Shown piece by piece: positions 1 through 5,427 of a DNA stretch of 34,042 bases. The notes beneath the pieces were generated by a model. It made no database searches. It worked only from the letters and a program-made list of their open reading frames with translations, and was not told the DNA's origin. Position 1 is the stretch's first letter. Every line of letters begins with the position of its first letter. The translations under genes and the position numbers were made by a program. This stretch comes from Paracoccaceae bacterium. Lineage in GTDB: Bacteria; Pseudomonadota; Alphaproteobacteria; Rhodobacterales; Rhodobacteraceae. The stretch covers positions 1 to 34,042 of the forward strand of contig JAPOTI010000135.1 of assembly GCA_026709265.1 (NCBI GenBank), written 5' to 3'.

Positions 1-169
1 GCACGCCCCGCGCCAGGGCCGCCTGACGATTCGCCAAAAGCAACAGATCAGGAATCAATCAGGGTCCAAACCCAGCCATATGGGAATCACTCCCTGCCTG
101 TTGCCCAATATTGACTCTCAAATGTGAATATGGCATTGACATTGGCAAGACATAGAACCTGCAGCAACG

Positions 170-193
170 CCACCTGATTGCTGAATCAGGCGG
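170..193. terminator. Short stem-loop, possible terminator
   Basis: CCTGATT (173-179) and AATCAGG (184-190) are perfect inverted arms around a GCTG loop, and two more G:C pairs follow beyond one mismatch. On the plus strand the stem is followed only by TTT, so termination is a weak guess. The rest of 1-260 shows no gene I can recognise. Confidence 0.3.
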
Positions 194-260
194 TTTGGAA
201 TAGATAGCCTTTCATCATCGGCATCTCTCTTGTATCGCTGTCATACGATTTGATTAAGGT

Positions 261-455
261 ATGGTTGTGGACAATTCTCAAATTCCCCCGAAATCAGACA
301 ATCCCGTATCTGTCACCGGCTCTTCCGGTCATTTCGGGGCAAATCTGATCCGGCGGCGGCGGCAGGATGGGCAGCGGGTGCGCGTTTTTGTACGGCGGCA
401 AAACATGACAGGAGCGTGGCTATCAACCGGCATCCATTCGTCGCGCAGCGGGTAA
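261..455 (+). pseudogene. N-terminal remnant of an NAD(P)-dependent epimerase/3beta-HSD-like gene
   Basis: The 64-codon frame contains VTGSSGHFGANLIRRR followed by a second strand ending VRVFVRR. That is the first beta-alpha-beta unit of a Rossmann-fold epimerase/dehydratase (extended SDR), with the GxxGxxG dinucleotide loop at about residues 20-26. A complete member has roughly 300 or more residues; here the homology stops after about 50 and a stop codon follows. No continuation was found in the other frames before the next gene. It lies about 130 bases upstream of the Rieske oxygenase on the same strand, so it may once have belonged to that operon. What is seen is the truncated nucleotide-binding start; that it was a sterol dehydrogenase is only inference from the neighbours. 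Confidence 0.5.
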
Positions 456-588
456 TGCCTATTCGTTTCATCACGCGCGTGGAGTGGTCACCAATCCAAG
501 CGCAAAGCCACCGCGCAACACGGATCATGATGAGGGCATGTCAGACAAGCGTAACGTCTGATAAATTACTTGATCGGAGACTGATAAA

Positions 589-1707
589 TTGAACAAGATG
601 ACGACCAACGGACCACCGCGCTTTGAAGAGGCAGCCAACCTCCGCCAGAAGGCTCGAGCCGCCGGCATGGACCCAAATTACTGGTACCCGGCGGAAGAAG
701 TGCGCAATGTCAAACCCGGAACAGTGACAGAAATCGTGTTTTGGAAACGCTCTATTGCCTTGTTTCGTGGAGAAGATGGCGAATTTGAGGCCATGGAAAA
801 CCGCTGCGCACACCGTCAACTCAAACTCTCGCTCGGGCATGTGGTCGGTTGTCGGCTGGTTTGCGAATATCATGGTTGGGAATATGGCGGAAAGGATCGT
901 CCTCCCGGTGTACCCTTTGATCAGGGGCGAAGCTTCCCGGCGTTGGCACTCAGAACCTATCCTGTCAAAGTTCGTTACGGGCTCATCTGGATTTTCCCCG
1001 GCGACAAGGAAATGGCTGAAGTACGTAAGATTCCTGATATTCCTGAGCTTGAAGGCTCCAATCGCTGGACATGTATACCCCTGCGTTTTCAATGGTCAGC
1101 GCATCACTCCATGGTGATCGACAATGTCAGCGATTTCACCCACGCCCATCTTCACCGTCGCTTCAAACCATTCGAAGATGCCACCCTGACCGAATATGAG
1201 ACGGTCGGCGATAATGTGCATCTCGCGTATGACACGCGGGTTGGACGCGGCCGAGTCTCCGGTTTGTTTGTTGACCACAAAAAGCTGAACACCAATCATA
1301 TGAAGCTCTGCTATGAATACCCGTATCAGTGGTCGAATACTGACAATGCGATCAAACATTATCTGTTCGTGTTACCGATGAATGAGCGAACCTCACGGGT
1401 GTTTTTCCTGTTCTATTTCAAGGCCCTGAAGATTCCATTTCTGCCGATTCGGATACCGCGTATCGCCATGAATACCCTGATGCGCATTTCCAACCGTCTT
1501 TTGATCGTCCCGCTTCTCTCCGAGGACAGGTTTGCCTTGGAAGCGGAGCAGGAGGGTTATGAAAATCACTGGAACTCTTTTCCTGTTGAAACCAATCCAG
1601 TTGTCAAAGCGTTTCAAGAGGTGACCGTGCGCAAGTGGAACGAATATCTGAGCCGGACGGCAGAGGCCGCCGCCGCCCAAACCGCCAAGCGTGCCCGACC
1701 CCACTGA
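589..1707 (+). CDS. Rieske [2Fe-2S] oxygenase, possibly sterol-acting
   Basis: This is a 372-residue oxygenase of the Rieske non-haem iron type. The [2Fe-2S] ligands are C73-x-H75 and C92-x2-H95. The mononuclear-iron region is D182-F-T-H185-A-H-L-H189, preceded by N179. Such enzymes take electrons from a separate reductase and use O2 to oxidise ring or methyl carbons. The TTG at 589 is preferred because GGAGA (576-580) sits eight bases upstream; the ATG at 598 is spaced worse. The 3' end overlaps the next gene by 17 bases, so the two are probably translated together. That neighbour belongs to the sterol C-14/C-24/delta-7 reductase family. Known relatives that act on sterols are bacterial SdmA (C-4 demethylation) and animal Neverland/DAF-36 (7-desaturation). 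The sterol assignment is inference; the Rieske assignment is firm. No ferredoxin or reductase gene lies beside it. Confidence 0.85.
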   Translation: MNKMTTNGPPRFEEAANLRQKARAAGMDPNYWYPAEEVRNVKPGTVTEIVFWKRSIALFRGEDGEFEAMENRCAHRQLKLSLGHVVGCRLVCEYHGWEYGGKDRPPGVPFDQGRSFPALALRTYPVKVRYGLIWIFPGDKEMAEVRKIPDIPELEGSNRWTCIPLRFQWSAHHSMVIDNVSDFTHAHLHRRFKPFEDATLTEYETVGDNVHLAYDTRVGRGRVSGLFVDHKKLNTNHMKLCYEYPYQWSNTDNAIKHYLFVLPMNERTSRVFFLFYFKALKIPFLPIRIPRIAMNTLMRISNRLLIVPLLSEDRFALEAEQEGYENHWNSFPVETNPVVKAFQEVTVRKWNEYLSRTAEAAAAQTAKRARPH

Positions 1708-2785
1708 GCCGTTGCCAGTCATGTCAGGAGAAATGCTGCTGTCCGCGGCAATCGGGGGCCTGGCCTTTACGATCCTGCTGTTTGTTGCCTCCGTTCTTCT
1801 GCCTGGGAAGCGCGCCACCGGACCGGATGCTGATGGCGGTGAAAGGGTCTATTGTCTGAACGGTTTCGTCATATTCCTGCTCACTATTTTTGTCGTGGGG
1901 TTGGCTTACATCTTCGGCTGGTTTTCTCTGTCCTGGGTGCATACGCATTTTTTTGGTCTTTTCGCCATTGCAAATCTGTTCGCATTCTCATTTCCTCTAT
2001 GGTTTTACTTTCAAGGGCAGCGCCAGCGACGCTACCCACACGGCTTTTTGCATGGCTATTTTTATGGCGTGGATGCATCCCCCGTCTGGTGGGGTATTGA
2101 CCTCAAGTTTTTCAGCTACCGACCTTCACTCATAGGATTAGCCCTACTCAATTTGTCATTTGCGGTGGTCCAGTACGAAACGTACGGCGAAGTCAGCCTC
2201 GCCATGGCTCTCTATCAGGTCTTCACATTTGTTTATGTGCTCAACTACTTCCAGTTCGAGGATGGGATGATCCATACATGGGATATCATCAGTGAACGAT
2301 TCGGGTGGATGCTCGTCTGGGGCGACTATGTATTGGTTCCATTCTTCTACTGCCTGCCCGCATGGTTTCTGGTCGATACCCGGGTCACATTGTCTCCTGC
2401 TGCTGCCGTCGCCATTACAGCCCTCTTCGCCTTCGGGTTCTGGTTGTTTCGTACAGCCAACCAGCAGAAACATGACTTCAAACACAAGCCAAAGGCCTCG
2501 ATCTGGGGACGCCCCGTTGAAACACTTGATGGAAAATTGTTGATCTCTGGCCTTTGGGGCATTGGACGCCATCTCAATTATACAGGGGAAATCTGTGTCT
2601 ATTTCGCATTTGCTTTGACAACGGCATTTTCCTCCTGGATACCGTTTCTGCTGCCAGTCTGGCTCACCATTCTGCTGTTGCATCGCTCCGTTCGCGACGA
2701 ACGCCGTTGCCGCAAAAAATATGGTGAATTATGGGACCGCTACAGCCAGAGGGCGCGTTTTTCCATGATCCCTTTCATCCACTGA
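1691..2785 (+). CDS. ERG4/ERG24-family sterol reductase-like membrane protein
   Basis: This 364-residue protein has about eight to ten hydrophobic segments and the signature blocks of the ERG4/ERG24 family (sterol C-14, C-24(28) and delta-7 reductases, NADPH dependent, in membranes). The blocks are DLKFF near residue 137, FGWMLVWGDYVLVPF in the middle, a FRTANQQK segment, GRHLNYTGE, and the C-terminal run RDERRCRKKYGELWDRY ending in a conserved IPFI tail. The last 80 residues are the most convincing. Eukaryotic members are longer at the N terminus. The GTG at 1691 overlaps the Rieske stop; ATG 1721 and ATG 1733 are alternatives, and none has a well-spaced ribosome site. Which double bond is reduced cannot be told from sequence. 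Bacterial members are uncommon, which makes the pairing with a Rieske oxygenase notable. The family call is confident, the substrate is not. Confidence 0.85.
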   Translation: MPDPTEPLPVMSGEMLLSAAIGGLAFTILLFVASVLLPGKRATGPDADGGERVYCLNGFVIFLLTIFVVGLAYIFGWFSLSWVHTHFFGLFAIANLFAFSFPLWFYFQGQRQRRYPHGFLHGYFYGVDASPVWWGIDLKFFSYRPSLIGLALLNLSFAVVQYETYGEVSLAMALYQVFTFVYVLNYFQFEDGMIHTWDIISERFGWMLVWGDYVLVPFFYCLPAWFLVDTRVTLSPAAAVAITALFAFGFWLFRTANQQKHDFKHKPKASIWGRPVETLDGKLLISGLWGIGRHLNYTGEICVYFAFALTTAFSSWIPFLLPVWLTILLLHRSVRDERRCRKKYGELWDRYSQRARFSMIPFIH

Positions 2786-3357: not shown

Positions 3358-3726
3358 CTATGCACTTTCCCTCATCGTGTTCGTCTTCGAGAGCCGTACG
3401 AGAGTCTTATGGGCGTAATCATTACGGATCGAGTTTAACGACCGAAAATCGCCATCATCATCTCTTGCGAAATCGTGAAGCGTATTCTGCTCGACGCTAT
3501 CATACTCAAGGAACACCAACATCTTTTTCACGATTTTCCAACGCGTTTTCGTGTCATAAACAGGTGAGAGAAAGCATTTGGTCATGTGAGTCGCAAACAC
3601 GCCGACGTCATCCGGGAAATCATCTGCGTCTTTCTTGGCAGATTCCGAACGATCTGAGATGATGCCCTTCACATAATGAGCAAGCGCTGATTTATGGTCG
3701 TTTTCGAGTTTCTGCCATGCCTGCAA
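3358..3726 (-). pseudogene. Frameshifted C-terminal domain of the response regulator, HEPN-like motif
   Basis: The frame starts at a TTG inside the preceding gene and continues it after one frame change: adding one T to the six-T run (3725-3730) joins ...LNQIF directly to LQAWQKLEND. The 120-odd residues are helical in character, with many charged residues. Near the C terminus is SIRNDYAHKT, where R101-N-D-Y-A-H106 fits the R-x4-H motif of HEPN domains; MltR/MtlR-type proteins show a similar segment. HEPN domains are often RNases or nucleotide-binding partners in defence and toxin systems. The motif is seen; the HEPN fold is inference. It may be a genuine disrupted gene, a slippage site giving two products, or an assembly error in a homopolymer. 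Confidence 0.55.
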
Positions 3727-4214
3727 AAAATCTGATTGAGCCGGGCATCAAGTTCACTAACGCCCTCCATAAGGAGACCACGAGTCTGCTTTGTCGTCTG
3801 CTCCTTATTCAGGAGGCTTCTTACAACGTCTTTGAATTTGTCCATCAGAAATCGGCGATTTGCGATATAAACGCCATCAAGTCGCTTTGTGCACACGGCG
3901 TCAAATATCTCTTCTTCAGGACTGGATGAATAGAAAATCACGGGGAGGTAAACGTGGTCAGTATTCCTTATGAGATGAACAAGTTCGTCTCCACTCAATC
4001 CGTTCATATGGTAATCAACGATCAGAATATCGAGTTCAGGGTTGCTGAGATTATCCTTAATTCTGTCGTGAATGGACCCATCTGGAGGTGCCTCTACAAA
4101 TTTAATATCAGCATATATGCCGAATTCTTCCAGAAACTCTGTTATATCAATCTGATCCGGTTGCGTATTGTTAGGCTCGTCGTCGATCCATAGGATATTA
4201 TAGGAAGTTTTCAA
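3669..4214 (-). CDS. Response regulator receiver domain (frameshifted at its 3' end)
   Basis: A CheY-like receiver domain occupies roughly residues 5-135: the acidic pair is D11-D12 in LWIDDEP, the phospho-acceptor is D67 in ILIVDYHMNG, and the serine switch position lies in FYSSS. No DNA-binding domain follows in this frame; after about residue 160 it runs out of frame relative to the HEPN-like domain described at 3358-3726. TTG at 4214 is chosen because GGAG (4228-4225) is ten bases upstream; an in-frame TTG at 4238 has no such site. The start sits just after the kinase stop, and the two would be co-translated. The cognate kinase is the adjacent gene. The intact product would be about 280 residues, receiver plus helical effector. 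Base composition is more A+T-rich than the flanks. Confidence 0.7.
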   Translation of the reverse strand: MKTSYNILWIDDEPNNTQPDQIDITEFLEEFGIYADIKFVEAPPDGSIHDRIKDNLSNPELDILIVDYHMNGLSGDELVHLIRNTDHVYLPVIFYSSSPEEEIFDAVCTKRLDGVYIANRRFLMDKFKDVVRSLLNKEQTTKQTRGLLMEGVSELDARLNQIFCRHGRNSKTTINQRLLIM

Positions 4215-4218
4215 AAGT

Positions 4219-5427
4219 CTATAACTCCAGTTCGACAACGGCTCCGCCGTCGTTATCGTTTCGGATCAAGATTCCGCCGTTGAGATCACTGACGATTTGC
4301 TTCACATGGTTAAGCCCGATTCCTGAACCGGACGTTGTCGAAATTCCACGTTCAAAGAGATCGTCGGCATCATACTTCGCAGACAGACCCATTCCGTTAT
4401 CAACAAAAGCTACCTTCGTCTTGCCTTTCGCTTTCGATACAACAACCCGAACGTTGGTGGCATTTGCTTTTCCGGCGTTCACAAGAAGATTATCGACAAG
4501 TATGGTCATTTCGATAGGCCTGAAAGATCTTTTGAGGATTATCCCGTCAGGATTCTCAAAAAATATACGAATGCTCAGCGCGTGAAGGATATCCTTATAA
4601 CTTTCAAGATATTCCTCAATGAACTGTACAATGTCAGCGTTGACTTTATTGGTCATTAAATCGAAATTGGCTTTTAATGCCAACTTCGTCGCATTACGAA
4701 TTTTCTCAAGCTCATACTGACCCGCTTCAATCGCCTCAATCAACTCCTCCTTAGAGTATCGTAACGGGTCCTTTCGGAATCTCCGGCTCACACCGTTTAG
4801 GCGTTTCCAGATGCCATCGGCAATCAGGTTTACCTGATGATGTAACTGTAGAATTGTGTGTTGACCGGTCGAATAGTGAGCCTCGGCAAAAAGGCGTCGC
4901 TTTTGCTCGACACACAGTTCCTTTTCGGCAACCGCACGTTTTTGCTCAAGTCGCTTATTGGTTTTGTCTTTGACTTTAATTTCTTTGGCCGCGCGGCTTA
5001 TGAATTTAGATAAATCGCGCTTTTCAGTTGGCCGCAGTTTTTCGATGGGGCGTCCTTCGAATTTTCCTTCGAGAGTTTCAACAAGCTCTTCGTATTTTTC
5101 AGCTTCTTGTTCAGCGAGATCGCTCAAATAACGAAGATTCACTTCGACGTTCTGAATGTACTCGTTCGGTGAACGAATACGGACAACCGAATCGATCGTT
5201 TCCAAAGGGTTATGCTCAAATCTGGGTAACGTTCTGATCGCGCATAACAGGTCGCGGCTGACGGCACGTTTCACAGCGAAAAGAAAGTTGTGTGCGGTTT
5301 TGTCAGTACAGAAGACAGCACGCCGTTGATGTCGGTGATTTGGCTTACTCACGAAATTCGTGTGGGCCGATACCCCAAATCTGCGATCGATGAACCCATC
5401 CCTGGTACCCACCGGCTCTGATCGCAC
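4219..5427 (-). CDS. GHKL histidine kinase, probably truncated at its N terminus
   Basis: The C-terminal 140 residues are a HATPase domain with N box DNLLVNAGKA, G1 box DNGMGL and G2 box GSGIGL. Before it is a long charged helical region (about residues 85-190, likely coiled coil) and a dimerisation segment with ILQLHHQVNL, whose histidine pair could be the phospho-acceptor. No membrane segment or sensor domain is visible. The open frame begins at GTG 5427 inside the end of the SH3 gene, and its first 27 codons are only a shadow of that gene. No ribosome site is seen at any start; GTG 5274 is another possibility. I recall related soluble kinases carrying an extra Hsp90-like ATPase domain upstream, so a 5' deletion at about 5290-5345 is inferred. 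The 60 bases from 4621 are 35% G+C, which suggests acquired DNA. Confidence 0.65.
   Translation of the reverse strand: MRSEPVGTRDGFIDRRFGVSAHTNFVSKPNHRHQRRAVFCTDKTAHNFLFAVKRAVSRDLLCAIRTLPRFEHNPLETIDSVVRIRSPNEYIQNVEVNLRYLSDLAEQEAEKYEELVETLEGKFEGRPIEKLRPTEKRDLSKFISRAAKEIKVKDKTNKRLEQKRAVAEKELCVEQKRRLFAEAHYSTGQHTILQLHHQVNLIADGIWKRLNGVSRRFRKDPLRYSKEELIEAIEAGQYELEKIRNATKLALKANFDLMTNKVNADIVQFIEEYLESYKDILHALSIRIFFENPDGIILKRSFRPIEMTILVDNLLVNAGKANATNVRVVVSKAKGKTKVAFVDNGMGLSAKYDADDLFERGISTTSGSGIGLNHVKQIVSDLNGGILIRNDNDGGAVVELEL

Follow-up and report, generated by a model that had tools for sequence, protein, structure and literature searches.

The closest described counterparts of the locus considered here come from sponge symbionts. 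In the sponge Melophlus sarasinorum, a gammaproteobacterial symbiont carries the msb cluster, which encodes an oxidoreductase (MsbA), a Rieske protein (MsbB), a sterol reductase (MsbC), a C30-demethylase (MsbD), a bifunctional squalene epoxidase/sterol cyclase (MsbE) and an SMT (msbF) (PMC7074536), and related clusters of steroid genes (CSGs) are published from Ircinia symbionts (PMC9531527). In addition, SdmA and SdmB of Methylococcus capsulatus have been discussed (PMC10202945), and fused SMO/OSC proteins are mentioned in the methods of a study on bacterial sterol synthesis, a trait that affects the reading of sterane fossils (PMC10070321).

The window analyzed here corresponds to the complete contig C105 (34,042 bp) from an alphaproteobacterial genome (G000; 3.14 Mb, 144 contigs, 98% complete) whose sterol genes lie on three contigs: C105, C104 and the short C79 (5,735 bp). 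With a probability of roughly 0.85, judged from sequence comparison, the window genes would belong to a dispersed but complete pathway for de novo sterol synthesis, in which they encode the C-4 oxygenase (SdmA) and probably the C-14 reductase.

The Rieske oxygenase and sterol reductase genes

A preliminary description of the window reported a Rieske oxygenase gene overlapping a gene for a protein with the ERG4/ERG24 signature. Both reading frames are real; they lie on the same strand and share 17 bp (Table 1). The Rieske frame opens with TTG, and the ATG at 598 is the more likely start. Its product matches Rieske (4.5e-18) and VanA_C (2e-12) in Pfam. Its NCBIfam match is to NF052579, the profile for SdmA (4beta-methylsterol monooxygenase), at 9.3e-116 and 386.6 bits, which is below the curated equivalog cut-off of 600 bits. 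The runner-up family reaches ~31 bits, so the protein does not fall among the aromatic-acid demethylases. The Rieske CxH/CxxH ligands and the mononuclear iron residues D182/H185/H189 are invariant in a 56-row alignment.

The second protein matches ERG4_ERG24 (PF01222) at 4.7e-69 and 233.7 bits against a gathering cut-off of 27, compared with 49 bits for DUF1295, and thus does not group with the latter. The C-terminal ERG4/ERG24 signature is conserved and the closest solved structure is the delta14-sterol reductase of Methylomicrobium (PDB 4quv, 3.9e-65). The protein is a probable C-14 reductase.

Further downstream, on the minus strand (3358-4238), two ORFs overlap in different frames (3358-3726 and 3669-4238), the second resembling a response-regulator receiver. 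They are possibly a single frameshifted gene; a Pfam search at 1e-5 gave no match for either.

Table 1. Coordinates of the sterol-related features in the window (C105) and of CYP51 on C104
Feature	Position	Strand	Evidence
Non-coding, 5′ of SdmB remnant; duplicate of the C79 region upstream of intact SdmB	102-260	+	129/159 identical
SdmB (3beta-HSD/epimerase-like) 5′ remnant, first ~50 codons	261-408	+	tblastn with eight SdmB proteins; C79 DNA 82%
Deletion junction, aligning with each end of the 812-bp stretch kept by C79	398-408	+	overlapping blastn arms, junction sequences
SdmB 3′ remnant, other reading frame	398-543	+	82% DNA identity to C79 4181-4036
SdmA-like Rieske oxygenase (MsbB homologue), intact	589-1707	+	372 aa; NF052579, Rieske ligands
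ERG4/ERG24-family sterol reductase (MsbC homologue), intact	1691-2785	+	364 aa, GTG start; PF01222
CYP51 (P450)	L028 7115-8515 on C104		best PDB relatives CYP51 chains, 6mcw 3.3e-101

A deleted and an intact SdmB

Upstream of the Rieske gene, the preliminary description had placed the start of an epimerase-like gene. The start at 261 is present, but it belongs to an internally deleted SdmB remnant: the frame runs for ~65 codons and then meets a stop. In tblastn searches, SdmB residues ~17-53 align to window positions 294-404 and residues ~322-361 to 397-516 in another frame. An 812-bp deletion and a frameshift thus leave the window without an intact SdmB frame, whereas C79 carries an intact one (361 aa, 4045-5130, minus strand; NF052578, 308 bits, below the NCBIfam equivalog cut-off of 600 bits). 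The profile matches as a whole uphold the idea of a sterol-type locus with an SdmA-like Rieske protein, an SdmB-like epimerase and a C-14-type reductase.

Window positions 102-408 and 398-543 are 82% identical to C79 at the DNA level, the upstream non-coding part included, which indicates that the window copy has lost 812 bp. The sequence CAAAGCAAGA, a 10-bp direct repeat, is found in the C79 copy at both ends of this stretch, and the loss fits a deletion between short direct repeats. The SdmB start region would have been duplicated and the window copy deleted.

Two other features of C79 (locus L122) deserve mention. A 467-aa desaturase-like protein (PF00487; 1807-3210, minus strand) adjoins the intact SdmB gene. 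Relatives of the protein (49-55% identity) are encoded close to the sterol cassette of L078, L050 and L064, and L046 has a fragment. A PDB search at 0.01 gave no match for this protein, which is a possible sterol-tailoring accessory. At the contig edge (27-836, minus strand) are pieces of an IS4/5-family transposase, part of which recurs as a 96% identical copy on C128 (11857-12216). Reading-frame listing and self-comparison revealed no recognizable remnants of IS elements next to the window's split or upstream of CYP51.

CYP51, the epoxidase-cyclase fusion and the predicted pathway

Neither a squalene epoxidase nor an oxidosqualene cyclase had been seen in the window, and nothing contradicts this; a search of the genome found both, together with CYP51, on C104. 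There, at locus L028, a single open frame of 1136 aa overlaps CYP51 and contains the Pfam domains squalene epoxidase (SE), FAD-binding, SQHop_cyclase_N and SQHop_cyclase_C. The best structural matches of its two halves are squalene monooxygenase (6c6n, 9e-29) and human lanosterol synthase (1w6k, 2.5e-130). In the fused cyclases, the positions aligned to human OSC 381/449/453 are A/H/V in 75/77 rows; the C104 fusion has these residues and a VSDCTAE motif. Since the key valine of MsbE was read as lanosterol-type by the Melophlus authors (PMC7074536), the product of the C104 fusion is probably lanosterol.

The genome therefore holds orthologues of all five msb/CSG enzymes, including a single protein that combines epoxidase and cyclase; their genes are spread over C105, C104 and C79 rather than forming a contiguous cluster. 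The presence of CYP51, the fusion and an intact SdmB implies that de novo sterol synthesis is encoded. Residues that are invariant in all other rows of the respective alignments are kept at 110/115 positions in SdmB, 121/122 in SdmA, 91/93 in ERG24, 89/90 in CYP51 and 126/127 in the fusion, and for this reason the enzymes look functional. In the trees, SdmA, ERG24, CYP51 and the fusion each fall within sets of alphaproteobacterial rows, as expected if one cassette had been split. By path, alphaproteobacterial rows are the closest to the C79 SdmB, but this protein lies in no starred set, so its placement is not firm. The branches leading to this genome are long for ERG24, CYP51, the fusion and SdmB.

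In the proposed pathway (inferred from these homologies), the fusion would form 2,3-oxidosqualene and cyclize it, with lanosterol as the probable product. CYP51, encoded next to the fusion, would remove the C-14 methyl group and the window ERG24 would reduce the delta14 bond. The window SdmA would oxidize a C-4 methyl group, with the SdmB from C79 completing the demethylation. Squalene could be provided by a squalene-synthase-like enzyme on C86 (TIGR01559, 116.8 bits, below the cut-off); an SQS/PSY match on C128 was rejected as the sterol-specific synthase because it sits among carotenoid-type genes. The ancestral layout may have been the msb/CSG cassette SdmB-SdmA-ERG24-CYP51-[SE-OSC], which later broke up.

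Alternative explanations and close relatives

The deleted SdmB copy and the long branches would also be expected if the cassette were being lost and the remaining genes were relics without net function. The close relatives bear on this question. Three congeners (G001-G003) gave no ERG4/ERG24 and no cyclase match; their CYP, SdmA-profile and SdmB-profile matches are weak, with no close CYP51, SdmA or SdmB. In G032, a relative from the same family, the fusion is intact, ERG24 has two stops and SdmB has one. SdmA is absent from the G032 fusion locus (elsewhere nothing scores above 94 bits), and no close CYP51 was found in that genome. G032 thus adds to the case for decay. In G000, however, all five enzymes are open and keep nearly all invariant residues, and a second SdmB copy survives, which makes decay of the pathway in this genome unlikely. 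For the family as a whole, we tentatively raise the possibility that erosion of the cassette begins with its late steps, given that G000 keeps all the enzymes, scattered, and G032 only an intact fusion; the first cyclized sterol might then be the product that selection retains.

The dispersal might instead stem from assembly or binning, through a false split or because C79 and C104 belong to another symbiont. The genome is in 144 contigs, and C79 is short and carries transposase pieces. However, CYP51 and the fusion are in the middle of C104, amid other genes, ~31 kb of the window follows ERG24, and the 18% difference between the two SdmB copies shows that they do not represent a single locus that was assembled two times; we consider such an artefact very improbable. 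Uptake of host sterols and their modification by SdmA and ERG24, or action on another terpenoid, was the function suggested in the preliminary description, and the window by itself, having neither epoxidase nor cyclase, is compatible with salvage of this kind, but an intact SE-OSC fusion, CYP51 and an intact SdmB in the same genome leave it with scarcely any likelihood. We therefore retain the reading of a complete, dispersed pathway. It follows that the absence of cyclase genes beside SdmA and ERG24 does not imply sterol salvage.

Distribution of the fusion and the cassette

A scan with a two-row alignment (A1) confirmed 116 fusions, from which the best 80 named loci were kept. The comparison covered 82 loci, including L028 and L029; all of them have the epoxidase and the cyclase in one frame, which is free of stops in 80/82. 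SdmB, SdmA, ERG24 and CYP51 all lie within 10 kb of the fusion in 56/80 loci (best 80 of 116), distributed over Gammaproteobacteria (31), Alphaproteobacteria (8), Nitrospiria (7), Rhodothermia (4), Bacteroidota (2), Terriglobia (1), Binatia (1) and unclassed records (2). This arrangement is the published msb/CSG cluster of sponges (PMC7074536, PMC9531527). Also among the best 80 of 116, eleven fusions for which 6 kb or more of upstream sequence was available have none of the four partners nearby. Most fusion loci are from records titled MAG; some record titles and the Ircinia and Melophlus publications point to sponges as the habitat of the cassette.

In L078 (Binatia) the cassette is rearranged, with ERG24-CYP51-fusion on one strand; SdmA and SdmB follow downstream on the opposite strand. 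Three Polyangium loci (L103, L104 and L105) have a fused epoxidase-cyclase of ~47% identity and, just upstream, an SdmB-like gene (~38-39% identical); Polyangium has been described as having mostly only an Osc (PMC12004948). As L104 is from P. fumosum DSM 14668, bifunctionality could be tested in a strain-collection bacterium.

Comparison with known systems

The likeness to M. capsulatus lies in the use of two enzymes for C-4 demethylation, a Rieske oxygenase and an NAD(P)-dependent reductase. In contrast, the G000 proteins score below the equivalog cut-offs, and M. capsulatus has a separate squalene epoxidase gene, MCA2872 (PMC4919349), where G000 has the SE-OSC fusion. The Ircinia CSGs are alike in their order, DFR - hypothetical - ERG24 - CYP51 - LSS, and their last three genes span 5910 +/- 74 bp (PMC9531527) compared with a summed 5907 bp in G000. 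These CSGs are contiguous, however, and SdmA/SdmB and the fusion are not named in that paper, although the length of the LSS alignment given there (3765 positions) suggests that the Ircinia LSS is a fusion. A Sterol_MT_C search of G000, made without a positive control, found no match, whereas the msb cluster includes an SMT. The same five enzymes are otherwise present in both; in the msb cluster they form one locus with msbF (PMC7074536), while in G000 they occupy three contigs, with SdmB duplicated and one copy dead. The kind of system is thus already known, and the present genome adds an alphaproteobacterial example in which this package of sterol genes is dispersed; what is new is that layout, the dead SdmB duplicate beside a live copy elsewhere, and the remnant in G032.
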